A DNA stretch of 64,000 nucleotides, taken from Dacryopinax spathularia (taxonomy: Eukaryota; Basidiomycota; Dacrymycetes; Dacrymycetales; Dacrymycetaceae). Every line of letters starts with the position of its first letter. Position 1 is the stretch's first letter. Location of the stretch: positions 620,001 to 684,000 of the forward strand of contig JBBPFI010000003.1 of the NCBI GenBank assembly GCA_037974965.1. The letters are read 5' to 3'. The notes below the pieces were generated by a model. It saw nothing but the letters and a program-made list of their open reading frames with translations, ran no database searches and was not told the origin of the DNA. The position numbers and the translations under genes are program-made. Shown here in pieces: positions 14,539-28,805 of the stretch.

Positions 14539-16486
14539 TCATTTTTCCTCTCCCATAGGCTTCCATCGATCCTCCTCATTCTCCGCCTCAGCCTCCTGCC
14601 CCGGCTCCGAGCGTCCCAACTGCTGCAGCTGGAACAGCTGTTCGTCCGACTGCTGCTTGCTCGCCGTCCATGCGTCGCGCGAGAAATCAAACGGATCGTT
14701 CGCGAGCCTGACGACGATCCCGCGCCCGCCGTACCGGTAGCCGTTGAACGTCTCGACCGCGTTGCGCGCTTCCTCCGCGCTGGAGAATTGGACTACGCCC
14801 AGGTTACGCACTTTTTCGTTGCGGACTATCTCGACCACTTCGACTTTTGCGCCGGTGGAGGAGAAGAGCTCGACGAGGTCTTCTTCGTCAGTCGAGAATG
14901 GGAACTGTGCGGAATAAACGCATCAGTATCATGCCGTTCGATCCAGGGCAAGACAGGATGAAAGGTCAAGAGAAAGCAAGAGACATACAAATTTGACGAC
15001 AACCTGACAAGAGCTTAACTCGACGCTCCTAGGCGCATACGGCGGCCTTCTCCTGCTGTTTTCCCAGGCGGCCAACGTCCCCTGCTCTGGCTGAGGTGGG
15101 AAATGGCTCAGACTACTGCCCTGGGGCAACCGCGTGTTCGCCGGCTCCGGCTGGATCGGGGCGGTAGGGTACGCAGGCCATGAAGCGGGTGTGTCGGGTG
15201 AGCTGGCCGAGGCTGAGTTAGGGCTGGGGGAACTGCCGCTCGTGGGCGGGGTCGTCCCCGGGCTCGATGGGTGGCTAGGCGGATAGGCCTGCGGGTGCGG
15301 CGGGTAGGCGTAGGGTGGCCAGCCCGGGGGCGGCGTGGGGTAGCCTGCAGGAGGGGCTCCGCCCCAGCCGATGGGGGAAGGCGGGTAGCCCGGCGGAGAA
15401 GGCGGCTGCGCTGGGAAGCCGGGAGGAGGAAGTCCGTACGGCGGTGGATAGGGCCAAGCGCCGTATGGAGCCGGCGGCGCGGGAGCACCAGGGTACGGCG
15501 CCTGTCCCCAGGGCGCTGCGGGCGTCGGTGCTGCCCCTTCGGCGTTCGGCTCATGAGGCCCAAACAATGGTGCTGGGGGCGTGTACGCGCGCGGTCCTTG
15601 CGGTACATGCTCATTTCCAGGGGGAAGGGGCGTCCCGGGTAACCGATCCGGCCTAGACCCCTGCACCTGCCACGATCCTTGCGTCTGCCCAAGATCCAGA
15701 CGATTCCTGTCCTCCGCGCCCATCAGTTGGCGCCTCATACCAGGCGTGACCGCCAGGTCGTTGATGTCCGCCTGGGGCGGACGTTCTTCCCAGGGCTTAA
15801 TGTCAAGCTGGCCGTATCGGCTTCCTATGCCAGGTTGCGAGAAATGGTTCATGGCGCGCTGGGCGGCTTCGGCGTTCTCGAGCTGGAGAGTGCCCCAGAT
15901 GGGCTCGTCGGGCGGGGCACCGGGCCTGCGGCAGATGTTGACGTGTGCTGGGGCGCCGAAGGGCTTGAAGAGGTCTTTGAGATCTTGCCAGGTGAACGTG
16001 GGCGGGATCTACACACACTCGGTCGGCACCGGACTTCCTTACGAGGGAAGAAGAAGACGTACGTTTCCGACATACAGCTGCACGGCCTGCTTGCCAAATA
16101 CGGCTTTCTGCTGCTGATCCTGAGGACGGGGCTCGTCTCGTACCCGCTTACGTTCCTCATACTGCGTGTCACCTACCGGCCGGACAAACACGCTCCTGCC
16201 TTGAAATTCTTGCATGGAGACTTCAGCAATGGCCTTCTCGGCCGACACTTCGTCTTCAAATTCCACCACACTGCGCGATGGAGTCAGACGAGGACGTCTA
16301 AGAGGGGAGAGGGAGGGAGGGGACGCACGCGCAGCCCTTTGACTGCCCGTCGGGCGTGGTGAGAATCTCCGCCTGCTTGACCGGCCCAGCCTTGTCCTGC
16401 ATAAACTCGCGGACCTCGTCCATCGTCGCCTCATACGGCAGATTAAGCACAAACACCCTCTTCGCGACGTCCGACCCTTCGCCCAT
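14539..16486 (-). CDS. Three-RRM RNA-binding protein, Gbp2/Hrb1-like (583 aa, 4 exons)
   Basis: Probable nuclear/shuttling mRNA-binding protein. Exons from the start: 16329-16486, 16063-16270, 14989-16008, 14539-14904. RRM1 (residues about 8-85): RNP2 RVFVLNLP, RNP1-like KGCAVVEF. RRM2 (about 110-185): AVQLYVGN, then TFTWQDLKDLFKPFG as in Gbp2 RRM2, with IWGTLQLE as RNP1. A linker of about 230 residues is very rich in Pro, Gly, Tyr and Ala. RRM3 (about 445-540) has VVVKFFPFSTDEEDLVELF and NLGVVQFS. The C terminus is Gln/Glu-rich. The frame stays open upstream of 16486, and an AG at 16545 could be an acceptor, so a short extra 5' exon is possible. Gbp2 similarity rests mainly on RRM2 and the domain order. 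Confidence 0.75.
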
Positions 16487-21178: not shown

Positions 21179-23752
21179 TCACCAATTGTCAAACCCAGGG
21201 CTGTCCCAGCCAGACCTGCTGCCTGAACCGCGCACTGGGCTCTCGAAAAGGCCGAGCTTCGTACCGCTCGAGATGAACATTTGGAGATCTTCGTTCGCCT
21301 GCGTGGCGGGGTCGGACATGTCCCATTTCTGGGCAAGAGCACGGCCGAGAGGCGTGCCGAAGAGGGAGGATGCGCCGGGTGAACCGAAGAGGCCACGCGA
21401 AGGCGTTGAGTTGAGCGCCGCGAAGGGCGATGGACTAGGGAAGATGCCTGAAGCAGAGGCACTTCGACCATGTGTGCCGCCAAGGCGGGACGGCGTGGAG
21501 AGGGTAAGCTCATCATATCCCGGCAGTTTCCTTGCAGGCGGGGTGGACAGCACCTCTTGCAGACCCGGAATAGTCGGCAGCCGGCGGTCCGACCTTGACG
21601 GATTTGAGATAATCTCGGACACCTTGGATGGCGGCGTACGCGGCCTTTTGGGTGTAGCAGGTGGACCCATGCTCGTAGCAGCCGTCGCCTTGGCCAGGGT
21701 AGGCAGAGGCGCAGCCACCGCATTCGGCGAGATCTCGCGGAAGACGGTCTGGGTGAGGAACGTGAAAGGCGACATGCCGTGCGTGTCCATAGCGTCCTGC
21801 ACGCGGTCGATCTTAGGCTGCAGAGGAATGCGCTCCGTCTTGGGTTCCTTGCCTTTGTTCGGGTTCTTGGGCGAGAGCTCAAAGTTGGGTTGCAGGCCAC
21901 TAAGCTTCGAAGGCACGCTGTAACCAGGAGGAAGAACAGACTGGTTTTGCAGTGCAGCCATGGGTGAAGACGAAGGCGGACTTGACACGCTGGGTGTGAG
22001 GCCTGGCATGTTCGGGAACTGCTGCGACAAAGGCGGCAGAGGAGAGACAGCGCGGACTGGCGTCTGGTTCTGGAGGGACTGCTGTGTTGGCTGAGAGGGC
22101 GCACGCGGGGGAGGCGGTTGCATGTCATAGCCGTCCGGAACAGCCCACATGATGGGTGGTTCCGGTTTGGAGTTGCTACGGAACAATGGTCGCTTGGGCG
22201 GGCGGGAGCTCGAGTCGTCCTCGGATTCGTCATAGTCGAACCCAGATTTCCGTTTGCGATCTGAGTCGCTACCGCTATTGTGCCTAGTCAGAGCAGCTGA
22301 AGACGTGGAGCTGGCTGCTCTGGCTGCGGAGCCCTTCTTGCGGAAGCCGCCATTGGAAAAGCATTCTTCGTCGCCAGGACGAATGCCCCACCAGCAGCCC
22401 TTGCCCTTTTCACCTTCTTCGCGCTTAATCTTCACGAAGCACCTGAACGACAGTAAATCTCGCATGCTACATGATACAGTGAAAATTTAGACGTACTCGT
22501 TCAAGCTCAGGTTGTGCCTGATGGAATTCTGCCACCCAGCCTCACTCCGCTTGTAGAAAGGATACGCTGTGCTGATCCAGTTGTAGATCTGGCTCAGGCT
22601 GGCACGCTTGCTAGGCGCAGCATTGATGGCTTGACCGATGAGGGCAGCATATGACCACGCTGGCTTGGTGTTCGGTCGGGGACCAGTAGGTACAGGGAAC
22701 GGCGCAGGCGTCACTTGATCGGCGTGGTATGGAGAGGAAGTAGGCGGGATAGACTTGATGTTTTTCTGCGGCGTCACAAGAGAAGCCATGTGCGAGGCGT
22801 ATGCAGGCGCATATAGGCTAGACATATCTTGCGCGTGATACTGATACGGAAACTGGAGGTGTTGCTGCGCAGGTAGGTCTGCGTAGGACAATGCAGGAGA
22901 AGGAGTTGGCGATTCTTGCTCGACAGCATGCTGGTAATCGTCTCCTTCCTCCTGAACCGGATGACCAGGGTTAAGCAGGGATGAAGTTCGACCACCTACA
23001 TCGCGTCGTTCACGTTGCTCCATGAACCGTTCCATGGTAGAAACAGGCCGCTGGTAAGCAGCAGTATCAGAGATTGAACGCTTGAATGTATGCTGCGGGT
23101 TAGGCGGCATCTGCGGTTGGTGGAAGAAGTCCGTCGTGTATGCAGGCGGTTCAACCTTGATCGATGGATTGGGAATCGCATATGCGTGAGGATACTGCAC
23201 TTGGGCCTGGTGCTGATGGTGTTGCGGCTGATGAAGCTGCGGTTGGTGGTGCTGGGGATGGTGGTACGCGAGGGGAGCAATAGACTCTTCATACTTGCGC
23301 TTCTTCTCTTTCCGACGTTCTCTTTCTCTATGGGAAAGCTGCTCCGCTGCATCATTGAGAGACATGCGCGGCCTGCCAAAGCCGGAAGAGTCGGAGGCAG
23401 GAGAAGGGATAACTGGGGTCGCTGCGCTGGACGCGTTCTCGAAGTCGCGCGTCATGGATGCACGGGAGGGCTCGCGCTTGACCTGAGCAACAGGGGGCTT
23501 GGTCGGCTTAGTAGGCGCAGGCGCCTCGGTGGGAACGGACATGGAGCGGGTGAGGGACTGCGCGACCGCCACGGCGCGAAGAGAGGGCCCGCCTTGAGCA
23601 GAGCAGAACATGGTGACGAACGACTTCGTCTTCTCATACTGTTCGGCGGTGAACATCTTTCGGACTTCTGCCAGCGCGTCGTCTGTTAGCGCAGGGAGGG
23701 CGACCCCGTTTGGCGGCGCGGTAGGCGGGCGCGTCGGGGGCTCGGTGGTCAT
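21179..23752 (-). CDS. Forkhead (winged-helix) transcription factor (839 aa, 2 exons)
   Basis: Nuclear DNA-binding regulator. Exons 22497-23752 and 21179-22442; the 54-nt intron splits the forkhead domain. The domain (residues about 365-450) reads [60 protein letters not shown], then [13 protein letters not shown], with the DNA-contact helix NSIRHNLS intact. I see no FHA domain, which argues against Fkh1/Fkh2 and favours the Hcm1/Sep1/FoxJ-like group. The N-terminal part is rich in His-Gln repeats and has a basic [12 protein letters not shown] patch; the C-terminal part is Ser/Pro/Thr-rich with SP/TP sites, as in CDK-regulated factors. A 3-kb gene-free region with a CArG-box repeat array lies upstream. 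Confidence 0.92.
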
Positions 23753-25030
23753 CGGGCTGCATTGTGAAGACGACGAGGACGCGTCAGAAGACGGCGGCGA
23801 CGCGTCTAACTTGGATGTACTTACGCGTCACTATAGATAGCCTAGCAAAGGTGTATACCCAAGAGCAAGGCTTGTTGTTGCTTTAGGCGGAGCGAAGTTA
23901 CGAGACGCGGTGCACAGTAGGATATTGCAATGTTCGGCGCGTCGGATGGGTGTTGCTATGCGCAATGGAGGGACTGAGGTGGAGATGGTGGGACGAAAAC
24001 AAGCATTCGCTTTCTCGTGGCGACCTCGCGGGTAATGTTAATGTATCCCTTTCGCAGACGGGGGAATGACGGCAGGCACGGAGTGAAAAAGTATGCGGAT
24101 AGATGGTGAGGAGGGTGAAGATGGTGCAGACGAAGAGGGGGGCGGCTAAGTAGGTCCAATCAGACGTGTCGCTACTGAAGGTCTGCAAATGCCCGCGCCA
24201 AACCACCACTCGGCGAGGAGGGACATGGGACGAGTCTCATTACACGGGTCCTAAATTAGCTAAATGCCTCCGTAAATAATGGCCTAGGCGCAGGACGCGG
24301 CAAGACGCGCGTGAGGTCATAGTCATGTGACGAAAACAACATGTCGCGCCAAACGCGCGTGACCAAGGTTTACTCCCGCCCGCAAGCTGAATCGGAACCG
24401 TCTGTGGCCGACGGGATCGCCGCAACCACATGCATTGATTGAAGCTTGTCTGTAATGTGTGTCTCCGTAACCGCATTTAACTTCCAATGATTGTTTGTGG
24501 CACGGAATGCGGCGTTTGAGGCCTCGACTTGCTGTCAAGCATTGTTGCTCGGGATCTCAAGCTGAGCCGCTCGCTGGATTTGAAAGCAATTATGGACAAC
24601 AAATGAAGACGCCTCTCGAGCTCGCTATATACAACTTACATCCCTGTCCGTGGCTGCTTGACAACTAAACAGATCGGGTGCTCTCCGCACATCGTTGTGG
24701 ACCCTTTCGGCCACAGTCGGATCGTGGCAATTGCGTCTCGAGCTGCTGACCACCAGAGGAGGGCATTTCAGCGCTACGGCGACCGACTGCAACAGATGGT
24801 GGAGGTCATTTGTTAACTCATCGGTACTCTTCAGTACCCGCTGCAGATCGCGTTTCTAGCTCTGCAAGGTCAGTAGTGTTTCCCTGCGGTGCTGACCAAC
24901 CATGCGCCCATAGCCCTGAAATGGCCTGCCACGTCTAGCGACCACTTCATTCAGCATTTTCATGCCCAAGATTTGCCCTGCAGCGTTTCCTGGCTTTCGA
25001 AGGGCGAATCCCCGCTCAGCGATCACCACC
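23753..25030. promoter_or_regulatory. Upstream region of the forkhead gene
   Basis: Gene-free sequence between the forkhead start and the repeat array. Minus-strand ORFs at 23898-24209 and 24240-24538 lack known motifs. Probably promoter and 5' leader. Confidence 0.4.
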
Positions 25031-25041
25031 CACTGCAATTA

Positions 25042-26650
25042 CCAAATAAGGCAATTCCTTGCGCCACAAATTTCGAAATCGCGGCCCGAAAAATCCCAAC
25101 CTCGGGTATTTTGCGCCTGCAATGCCGCCAGCGCTGGGTAGATCAAGGGAGACTAGACGGTTTTCGTAGATTCGATTCACAGCGCGAGTATTGGAGATTT
25201 CTTTGGGTTCAACCGGGATTATTCGGCGGTCGCGTGCCGGCGAAGCAGATAGGTTTGGGCCGTGGTACTCGGTGTCCTCGCGTTATATTGACCTCGTGCC
25301 AATATTCCGCTGCCTACCAGACGCTACTCGCTTACGGCGACGTCTACAACTAAGACGTCCCCTTCAACGCTCGACCTGCTTTAGGCGGCCCTGCGCCGTC
25401 CTACAGCTCTGTTTGGGCAATTGCAAAGGTTCTCATCAACAGTCCTAGACCAGTCCAACATCCCTCAAAGCGCTCTGGTAACGTCAGGACGCTCCTTCTC
25501 CCCCTTCGTCAACCATGTCCAAATAAGGCAACTCGAAATTGTGGCAAAATTTCGAAATCGCGGTGCAAAAAATGTGGACCTGTTGGGTTTATGGGCTCGG
25601 AAGGTGCCTTGATCTAGGGAGAGCAGATCGGCCCGAACCGTTCGTCCTCAAATTGCTCAGAAGACGAGATATTCGCGTTTCGGTCCGCAAAATGCTCATT
25701 TCGGAAGGTTAGTTACTACTCTCTCAGTCATTCAAACGACCAGCTTCTGGCTGTAACGAATGAAGTACCGCGGTAGTAACGACGTCCAACCATCGAAAGT
25801 AGCCACCTTGCCGAATGAAGAGCTCGCCACTGGTGCCAGTCGCAACGATCCTCCTGATCAAAGGGGGCCAATCGCCACGTAGAACGGGCTCTGCGGCCAT
25901 TGGAACGGTCTACCATTACCGTCGATAATATTCTGGACTACTCTCAAAAGGCATCCCGGTGCTCATCCTCGCTGCCGGAAGATCATGTCCAAATAAGGAA
26001 AGTGGAAATCGTGGCAAAATTTTCGAAATCGCGGTGCGAAAAGTATCGCCCTTGGTTTTTATGGGCTCAATCGGTAGCAGGAGGTTAGCTGAGTAGATTG
26101 CAGTTGACCGTTCGGGCTGAAACGGCCTAGAAGGGGAGATAATTAGGTTTTTGTCGGCGGAAGGGATATTTTCGAGAGCCGACTGCGAGTCTTTCAGGTG
26201 CATGACTACCTATTCGTGGGTATTTCTAGGTGTTTCCTAGTGTTGGGAAGGCGAGCAACCCAATTTGATGCACTAAACTATTTCAAAAAAGCCGTTCTGG
26301 AGACACTGGCCACCGGTGCACCCTTGTGCAACAACAGCCAGCTACAACCCTCAGACCCCCAACAACTGGCCGACCTTCGTCCCCTGACCTCCCATAACCA
26401 TCCCAACCCCTCTGAAAGTCCTCTCGAGCCATCCGGGGGCTAATACCCGCCTTCGGGTCCAGCATGTCCAAATAAGGAAACTACATTCTGTGGCCAAAAT
26501 TTCGAAATCGCGGTGCGAAAATTCTGACTCTTGCTATTTTCGGCTGGGGGAGGTAGAGTGAGGTTCCGTGATCTGATCGGTATGGACGGTTTCCCGAGAT
26601 TTGGGCTGGAACGGAAGGTATGCGCCATTTAGTGCGCGGAATGGGGCAAA
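25042..26650. repeat. Degenerate four-copy repeat with CArG box core, about 475-bp period
   Basis: A core starting with CCAAATAAGG (a perfect CArG box) occurs at 25042, 25519, 25989 and 26468, spaced 477, 470 and 479 bp. In each copy a second block, TTTCGAAATCGCGG, starts 29-32 bp later (25071, 25550, 26021, 26500), followed by weaker similarity for about 150 bp (ATGGGCTC, GTAGATTGC/GCAGATCGG and CCGTTCG-like words). Copies 2-4 are preceded by CATGT. The remaining 300 bp of each unit are much more diverged. It looks like an old tandem duplication or a regularly spaced set of regulatory modules. It has no coding potential, no terminal inverted repeats that I can see, and no target-site duplications. 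Confidence 0.7.
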
Positions 26651-26837
26651 ATGCAGGTCATTGTTGGAGTCAATGCTTGATGGTAGGGCAACGGAGCATC
26701 TTGATTTTGGTGGGATCGCGCTCTGTGGACGTTGTCGTGTATATCCCCGGCAGAAGATGGGGAATACAATAGCAATTTCCACGCCCATACTACAGTACAT
26801 GACAAGCTATCTCCAAACCCCCACCACCCAGCCGCAA

Positions 26838-28320
26838 TCATTTCCGAGGCGGAGGAGCCGGCCCCACCGCGCCCCTCAACCGCTCCTCCAGCATCTCCTT
26901 AAACCCACCCACAATCTCGCTCTCCCGCTTCTCCCTCTCCTCCCTCTGCAACTTCAACAAACTCCGCTTCTCCTCAGCCGAAATCACCTGGTTCTCCTTC
27001 CTCATCCTGACCGCGTTCATCCGTTTATGTCTCGAGCCGGACATGACGTACCCCGCTTGCTCGTACGTGTCGATTTGGGTGGAGGTGAGGCCGATCTCGC
27101 CCCGGCGCGGGATACGTTCGTTGGACTGGACGAAGGCGGCTATGGCGGACCCTTCCCCGCGGAGGAGAGCACCGCCGTAGTCTCGCTCGCGGAGGGAGTC
27201 GGTATGTTGAGGTGCGGGCTGGGGGCCGACTTCTTCGTCGTCGTCGTCGGCATCCGCTGCGGACGTGCCGGGAGGAAGCCCTTTGGTAGAAGTAGGAGAA
27301 GGGGAGACGGCGGAACGAGCGACGTCGGCAGGAGCGGAGGATGCAGCTTCGGCCTCGGCGGTCTTCTCGATCCACATCCCTTCGTCCTCTTCCTCCTCAG
27401 GAGTAGCAGCGCGCAGGGACCTGCTGCGGCGTCGTTCCTTCTCACGACTCTTCTCTCTGGAGCGGTCCCGGCTCCTGTCTCTCTCATTTTCGCGTTCACG
27501 CTCTTTCCTCCGCTTGCGCCTGCCTTCGTCTTCGGAATCGGCGCTGTCGTCGTCGGAGTCGTCCCTCCTTCTTTTCTCTTTTCGTGAGGAGCGGTGTTTG
27601 TGTTCCCTCTCCCTTTCCCTGTCGCGCGACCGATCACGGTCATGTTTGTGTTTCGAAGAAGACTTGTATTTTCTGCGTTTGCGCCTGCCGTCTTCTGAGT
27701 TATCCTCCGAGTCGTCACTATCGGGGGTCTTGTGTCTTCTTCTCCTCTTTCGTTCAGGTGGCCTACGTCCTCGTAAGCATAAGTACGGATGAGAGACATA
27801 CGGAGATGACATACGGAGAACGTTCCGGCGACCCAGGACTCGGCGGCCAAATACTAACCCCACTCTCCTCCCTCTGCCGTCTCCTCGACTCAAACCAGTC
27901 ACTGCCTCCCTGTTGTCCCCTTCTCCACCCACCGCCACCGCCTCCCTGAGGGCTGGAAGTGCCATTCGGAGGATGCCCATTGGAGGGATACGCAGAGTAT
28001 TCCGGCGAGCTGCGGCGCTGTTGGAAGGAGCGGCGGGAGGCGTACATGTCTGGTCCGGGGCGTCGGTCGGGTTCTCCGTTTCGTCCGTCTCGATTATCTC
28101 TGTCGCGTTCATCCCGCTCGTCGTATCGGTTGTCTCGGCGGTCGCCCCTCTCGCGTGAGGGAGGTCGCTCATGTTCGGGAGGAGGAGTATAGGAGTAGTG
28201 TGCTGCTGGCATGTCCCGCTTGTCGGTACGGTAATCACCATTCCGACGCGGCTCTTCCTGCCTCTCTCCATCACGCCCCCGATATTGATGGGGCGGCGTA
28301 TCCCTCCTCACGTCGGCCAT
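26838..28320 (-). CDS. NKAP family protein (476 aa, 2 exons)
   Basis: Nuclear RNA-processing/transcription-associated protein of the NKAP (SynMuv product) family; in animals it associates with spliceosomes and represses transcription. Exons 27815-28320 and 26838-27762. The N-terminal half is Arg/Asp/Glu/Pro-rich; the middle is an RS/RE/RD and Lys-Arg domain. The C-terminal about 120 residues carry the family signature: YGGALLRGEGSAIAAFVQSN, ERIPRRGEIGLTS, QAGYVMSGSRHKRMNAVRMR, KENQVISAEEKRSLL, then a coiled helix ending in LEERLRGAVG. The 52-nt intron restores SPPPERKRRRRHKT. Divergent from the NFX1 gene. Confidence 0.9.
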
Positions 28321-28805
28321 CTTGCGTCCTTCCTGAGCAGAGCGAGTTTCCCAGCAATCGAGCGTGACCCGACGGCTACCAACTCACTCCACCGAAGCGC
28401 CCACCTTCCAACGGAATCAAGCTTACCTAATCCTCACCCAAATTCAGGGATCCCGCATCTTCCCGCTTCGTCATAAGCGAAAAGAGGGCGGTGATCGTCG
28501 TTGCCAGCGCCTTCCCGACTCGACTCGACTCGACTCGCATACGCGGTGACTCACCGCCTCATCAGCTCCTGCTCCTCCTCGCTTCTCAAAGAGGCTGCTG
28601 AGCTGATCTTCACCTGGGAAAGAGGCACGTGAGCGCTAAGCGCGGTCGCCTTATAAACCAAAACCCCTACTCCGACTGCCCAACTTTTCTGCTGAGTCTT
28701 AATACGACGAACGGCCATACCAGGCCCACCCAACCAGTTCATCAGTCGATACCACTACAACAAACCGCCATATTGAGCGCTTTAACGCAAACGATACCCC
28801 AGGCG
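28321..28805. promoter_or_regulatory. Divergent promoter NKAP / NFX1 with a CGACT microsatellite
   Basis: 485 bp between start codons. Contains four tandem copies of CGACT at 28516-28535. Open frame upstream of the NFX1 ATG starts at a GTG and is read here as 5' leader. Confidence 0.45.

Follow-up and report, generated by a model that had tools for sequence, protein, structure and literature searches.

Four tandem copies of a two-part core, each made of a CArG box and a second block of 14 bp that are identical in all copies, lie upstream of a forkhead gene, a probable cell-cycle regulator, in the Dacryopinax spathularia window that we analysed (64,000 nucleotides). We lean towards reading them as four composite regulatory modules, each pairing a MADS-protein site with a partner site, and probably serving the forkhead gene. 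The pattern suggests an undescribed cluster of gene switches; the arrangement is real and unusual, and, clusters of MADS sites being already known, it is not a new kind of element.

We propose that a sequence of ~475 bp upstream of the gene was tandemly duplicated long ago to give four copies, that most of each copy then drifted, and that a core of ~75 bp would have been kept as a composite cis-regulatory module. The CArG box with its GGNAA flank would be bound by the Mcm1/SRF-type MADS protein encoded on contig C5, and TTTCGAAATCGCGG, about three helical turns away, by a putative partner protein. Acting jointly, the four modules would form a homotypic cluster that activates (or represses) the Hcm1/Sep1-like forkhead gene from upstream; in its proximal promoter this gene also has a cluster of MBF-type ACGCGT boxes. 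To our knowledge, gene regulation by MADS proteins is little understood in basidiomycetes. If the proposal is true, the modules connect a factor of the Mcm1 type with a forkhead gene of the Hcm1 type in a lineage long split from the yeasts; as natural replicates whose unconstrained positions have mostly drifted, the four units would let the important bases be read off directly; and the private partner block would point to a new DNA-binding protein.

Layout and history of the modules

The box CCAAATAAGG, which contains the CC(A/T)6GG core of an Mcm1/SRF CArG site, is present without mismatch in 4/4 modules (Table 1), with start-to-start spacings of 477, 470, and 479. The partner block TTTCGAAATCGCGG is likewise exact in 4/4 copies, and begins 29, 31, 32, and 32 bases after the start of the CArG box in modules 1 to 4, respectively (28–31 bp from centre to centre). 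The earlier note had described four CArG copies spaced by 470–479 bp with a second block 29–32 bp on, and had placed copies 3 and 4 one base from the yeast Mcm1/ECB consensus; both descriptions were confirmed, copies 3 and 4 reading TGTCCAAATAAGGAAA, with one mismatch to TTNCCNNNTNNGGAAA, which we take to be this consensus. A GGNAA flank accompanies the CArG box in 4/4 modules. The region between the two blocks differs among the copies in sequence and length, with unit 1 deviating most, and GC content is 41–48% in the cores vs. 53% in the intergene.

Table 1. Coordinates of the modules, the array, and the neighbouring features in the window
Feature	Position	Strand	Details
Core module 1	25035–25107	+	CArG box 25042–25051; partner block 25071–25084; 67.5 bits when scored with the model derived from the same four cores
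Core module 2	25512–25586	+	CArG box 25519–25528; partner block 25550–25563
Core module 3	25982–26056	+	CArG box 25989–25998; partner block 26021–26034
Core module 4	26461–26535	+	CArG box 26468–26477; partner block 26500–26513
Eroded tandem array, units of ~475 bp	25042–26700	+	3′ end approximate; homology outside the core among units 2–4
Forkhead gene	21182–23752	−	ORFs 22490–23752 and 21182–22465, each with part of PF00250, with an intron between
NKAP-like gene (PF06047)	26838–28271	−	Stop codon bounds the intergene opposite the forkhead gene
Three ACGCGT (MCB-type) boxes	23779–23828		Starts 23779, 23800, and 23823; directly upstream of the forkhead ATG

The core is far better kept than the rest of each unit, as had been claimed before. 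Invariant columns number 42/76 in the alignment of the four cores, and in the whole-unit alignment they number 40/75 in the core bins (columns 51–125) vs. 55/450 elsewhere. The binomial probability of this invariance, for a core that was chosen after being seen, is ~1e-19 with a background of 12% and 1e-11 with a background of 20%. Alignment scores of the cores were higher than those of all 300 dinucleotide shuffles in 6/6 unit pairs (z = 11.8–23.1).

Homology outside the core was assessed by local alignment against 300 dinucleotide shuffles. Downstream of the core, it is clear between units 2 and 3 (z = 13.5, reached by 0/300 shuffles) and weak between units 2 and 4 (z = 2.5, 12/300) and units 3 and 4 (z = 2.7, 11/300); upstream of the core, it is found between units 2 and 4 (z = 5.0, 1/300) and units 3 and 4 (z = 3.3, 2/300), and is weak between units 2 and 3 (z = 2.0, 19/300). 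Unit 1 showed nothing clear with any other unit outside the core in these comparisons (z ≤ 1.6). A separate test with simpler shuffles agrees, giving z = 9.7, 4.9, and 3.9 for the middle part in unit pairs 2–3, 2–4, and 3–4, respectively, and z ≤ 2.4 for unit 1 (tail of units 1 and 2). No zeroth or fifth unit was found: a model built from the cores and run over positions 15000–40000 returned the four modules at 67.5–78.9 bits, with the next match at 4.4 bits.

Because traces of homology persist outside the core in units 2–4, the array is a tandem duplication of old date, eroded everywhere except in the core, which alone has resisted change. The earlier note had offered two explanations, selection on the core of an old tandem array or a fixed spacing of MADS-factor sites. 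Each is right in part and the two are compatible, the array being old and tandem, with a kept core, and situated upstream of a forkhead gene. The array with its kept core is observed, and from it we infer the selection; the fixed spacing is unnecessary as an explanation, since 470–479 is merely the length of the duplicated unit and therefore calls for no separate cause.

CArG words in the genome and uniqueness of the core

A single MADS gene was detected in the genome, on C5, and its product is of the Mcm1/SRF type (solved Mcm1: E = 1.5e-39; SRF: E = 2e-35; MEF2: E ~ 1e-11). There are 62 CCAAATAAGG sites genome-wide vs. 17 for a reversed control. Flanks were counted at all 58 sites outside the array, and 21/58 have AA at +2 and +3, as do all four modules, compared with background AA rates in the fetched sequence of 5.7% after GG, 5.8% after AGG, and 7.8% after AAGG. 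This excess of GGNAA (P ~ 1e-9) was unchanged when two repeat-derived sites were left out, one from a pair of repeats and the other a copy of a target-site duplication. Counting the CArG sites themselves, AA follows TAAGG in 34/242 cases and CC..A.AAGG in 23/92; without the CArG sites, it follows TAAGG in 13/184. The pattern CCWWWWWWGGNAA was found 188 times genome-wide vs. 90 times for the reversed pattern, the 188 taking in 5 array matches, palindromes counted on both strands, and some repeats. Since both the GGNAA flank and CCWWWWWWGGNAA exceed their backgrounds, an extended CArG word seems to be in use in this genome, and it is present in the modules.

Of the GGNAA sites, 3/21 have another CArG box no more than 150 bp away, vs. 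0/37 of the other sites. The partner block is absent from the other CArG sites, its best match 20–45 bp downstream having 5–9 mismatches out of 14 at 58/58 sites, and a comparison of 6-mers near the 21 GGNAA sites with those near the 37 others showed no difference that survives correction for the number of words compared (best P = 0.004 among 1687).

The composite appears to be private to this locus. In the 29.2-Mb genome, where the searches score best candidates only, the exact two-block composite had four matches, all in the array, and the 25-base stretch around the partner block was found with ≤3 mismatches in these four places only. The 14-mer itself has 3 one-mismatch places elsewhere in the genome vs. 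3 for its reversed control, and CATGTCCAAATAAGGNAA with ≤2 mismatches occurs in three modules and in 6 places elsewhere (control: 2). A DNA search of the genome with units 3 and 4 recovered the array alone, and a locus search with the Mus7-like protein in a collection of genome contigs found no relative. A core scattered through the genome, which the earlier note had named as evidence against its reading, was thus not found by these searches, and a dispersed mobile or satellite repeat was rejected, as the genome searches gave no copies beyond the array among the best candidates scored. Bacterial and archaeal genomes and viral contigs, collections not expected to hold fungi, contained the composite 0 times. 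The titles and abstracts listed, mostly from outside the subscription journals, described no such element and included no paper mentioning the 14-mer.

Several other CArG occurrences were noted. At two genomic CCAAATAAGGNAA sites (L058 and L091, near position 600) another CArG box precedes the first by 18 and 21 bp; the two are candidate promoters of a MADS target set. The near-palindromic extended CArG TTGCCATATTAGGCAA occurs in at least four places on C4 and at least two on C5, in pairs ~5 kb or 12 kb apart, and these copies probably sit inside repeats. The CCAAATAAGG sites on C2 and C14 (L043 and L085) have near-identical flanks and represent a dispersed repeat. A possible second array on C18, with CCAAATAAGG at 583489 and 584060, was rejected, the two words being the 8-bp target-site duplication AAATAAGG. 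The duplication flanks an element of ~550 bp with inverted ends GGAGCGAATGACCC (C18:583489–584060), presumably hAT-like to judge by the size of the target-site duplication, which accounts for two of the genomic CCAAATAAGG sites.

The forkhead gene and cell-cycle promoters

The intergene (23753–26837) has the start of the forkhead gene on one side and the end of the NKAP-like gene on the other, both genes being on the − strand. The modules lie 1.3–2.7 kb upstream of the forkhead ATG (23752), the closest at 1290 bp, and the forkhead gene is their likely target. Module 4 is ~300 bp from the NKAP stop codon; this stop codon bounds the intergene, so the modules lie behind the 3′ end of that gene, and module 4 might be inside its 3′ UTR. 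Several named fungal matches of the forkhead gene are Hcm1 or Sep1; this label is tentative because many of the 120 listed matches are unnamed or animal forkhead proteins. Neither ORF of the gene has an FHA match. One other forkhead gene was detected in the genome, on C15, and it has an FHA domain. SF3b1 in the window is 94% identical over its full length to that of Calocera cornea, with other named fungi among the 120 listed matches at ≤80% when coverage is full or almost so; a dacrymycete host is thereby probable.

The chance of any three of the 15 ACGCGT sites in the window falling within 50 bp, as the three boxes upstream of the forkhead ATG do, is ~0.001. ACGCGT was also counted in ten 4-kb upstream stretches, belonging to six MCM genes, two KilA-N matches, the MADS gene, and the other forkhead gene; these stretches begin at the matched domain and may miss the promoters of long genes. 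ACGCGT is found 23 times in them vs. 7.9 expected. A study of Cryptococcus neoformans, likewise a basidiomycete, found ACGCGT in the promoters of replication genes and of G1/S-network genes; HCM1 (CNAG_03116) is a network gene compared there, and the statement on the box is not specific to HCM1 (PMC5137879).

The exact consensus TTNCCNNNTNNGGAAA is in none of the four copies, each being one mismatch away on its best strand; on the − strand, which is the coding strand of the forkhead gene, all four differ from it by a single base. Modules account for 7/12 strand-sites in the window with ≤1 mismatch to the ECB consensus. The ten upstream stretches contain 0 CArG boxes vs. 0.7 expected from the window, 1 ECB-like site vs. 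2.0, and 31 loose Mcm1-type sites vs. 25.6. With CArG boxes at 0 but ACGCGT at about three times expectation, the MBF-type sites follow expectation, and no general ECB circuit is visible. A general yeast-type ECB circuit is therefore unsupported, and the ECB label of the earlier note is weak, since every copy is off by one base even on the better strand and the ten other upstream stretches have no CArG boxes.

The modules resemble the yeast Mcm1 sites (early cell cycle box, ECB, and P-box) in having CC(A/T)6GG with TTNCC/GGNAA half-site flanks, one mismatch away on the − strand, but differ from the yeast ECB in lacking an exact ECB, in the 14-bp block ~30 bp away, and in the four copies in 475-bp units. 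We know of no motif that the 14-bp block matches; nor is it known to be a site for Yox1 or a forkhead protein. Tandem duplication can also give rise to homotypic binding-site clusters, the familiar cases being closely packed or in animals and plants. Like such clusters, the array is a repeated module upstream of a regulator gene with eroded spacers and kept sites; unlike them, it repeats entire units of 475 bp, each with a two-part core, and its host is a basidiomycete. Composite SRF/CArG elements combine a MADS site with a partner site. The modules are similar in joining a CArG box to a second invariant block at a near-constant distance, in a genome that encodes an SRF-type MADS gene, and differ in the distance of 28–31 bp from centre to centre and in a partner protein that is only putative.

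A distance of 1.3 kb or more from the ATG is far for a fungal promoter element. As a possibility that we advance with considerable doubt, the fourfold two-part array, with its MADS site and locus-private 14-bp site 1.3–2.7 kb upstream of an S-phase forkhead gene, may be a long-range control element of a fungal type not described before, giving this one gene a dedicated switch factor and an array that sets the dose.

Alternative readings of the array

Two readings would leave the forkhead gene out of the matter. Under one, the array is a passive remnant in which the cores are alike through gene conversion or uneven decay and have no present function. We find this improbable. The tandem array is real, and short conversion tracts are possible in principle; however, both blocks are exact while the middle varies, and unit 1 has kept 10/10 and 14/14 bases of the blocks with no clear homology outside its core. 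Gene conversion is unlikely because copying in a single tract would have evened out the middle too, whereas exact blocks of 10 and 14 bp in 4/4 copies around a variable middle fit two bound sites. Moreover, the CArG positions that are kept (CC, GG, and AA at +2 and +3) are those in genome-wide excess. Under the other, the cores have a different chromatin or replication role, such as an origin, an insulator, or a 3′ boundary of the NKAP gene, and are not part of the forkhead promoter. The distance from the forkhead ATG, a partner block without a recognised motif, and the low GC content of the cores would suit this role, but an element of general use should recur, and the composite does not recur in this genome, where even the 14-mer is no commoner than its control; we regard it as quite unlikely.

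The remaining readings concern products of the intergene itself. ORFs of ≥80 aa that overlap it number seven and include one of 154 aa that starts with GTG and spans module 1 (+ strand), a 95-aa ATG ORF that covers module 3 (− strand), and a 328-aa ORF antisense to the NKAP-like gene. The earlier note had called the stretch gene-free, which agrees with the absence of Rfam and tRNA matches, and of Pfam matches over the cut-off in the ORFs scanned, and is qualified by these seven ORFs. None of the four intergenic ORFs scanned exceeds the Pfam cut-off, the 154-aa ORF reaching 13.7 bits against a zinc ribbon (cut-off 30.3) in the Pfam search, the one search made with it, and a search of 5.8 billion proteins with the unit-3 ORF brought up 1 candidate and no homologue with E ≤ 10. 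That the cores are coding, either as short exons or as small genes in decay, with the peptide FRTAISK...LFGH on the − strand or PNK...FEIAVRK on the + strand, is very hard to credit. Both peptides are readable in phase in units 1, 3, and 4, two of the ORFs cover modules, variable columns are uneven by phase (8, 9, and 15 of 25), and one − frame of unit 3 has a hexamer coding score of 0.32, on a measure that is weak on its own controls. However, the phase with 15/25 is the third codon position only in frames with stops, namely a + frame that TAA interrupts in 4/4 copies and a − frame that is interrupted in unit 4. Synonymous codon differences number only 8/75 in the − peptide frame and 2/68 in the + peptide frame, the remaining 67 and 66 being replacements, and most changes affect the first (−) or the second (+) codon position; no stop-free frame exceeds 8 synonymous differences, and in unit 2 the reading frame shifts by one base from one block to the other. 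With most differences being replacements and no Pfam match over the cut-off, a shared open frame with synonymous change was rejected. Tandem genes for noncoding RNAs or tiny transcripts, in which the core would be the promoter of each unit (an AT-rich box with a start ~30 bp on) and the diverged rest the RNA, are also unlikely. The unit length is regular, the cores have the same orientation in all four units, units 2 and 3 retain homology just downstream of the core, and 30 bp resembles the spacing from a TATA-like box to a start site, which we count in favour of such genes. Against them, Rfam gave no match up to E = 1 over 23500–28500, no tRNA was found in the window (bacterial settings), the invariant box ends in CC and GG and is not a TATA word, and unit 1 retains nothing clear outside its core. 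Folding of the consensus gave little stability (−3.2 kcal/mol over 114 columns), and in the folding tests on both strands 23/24 z values lie between −1.9 and 1.0, the lowest being −2.4 (unit 1, upstream plus core, − strand), with no low value common to the units. A structured RNA with a known family or a stable conserved fold was rejected on the same Rfam and folding results.

A tiny frame, ATG-TCC-AAA-TAA, occurs within the CArG part of units 2–4 (25515–25526, 25985–25996, and 26464–26475), unit 1 being without the ATG, and is probably a coincidence of the CArG letters.
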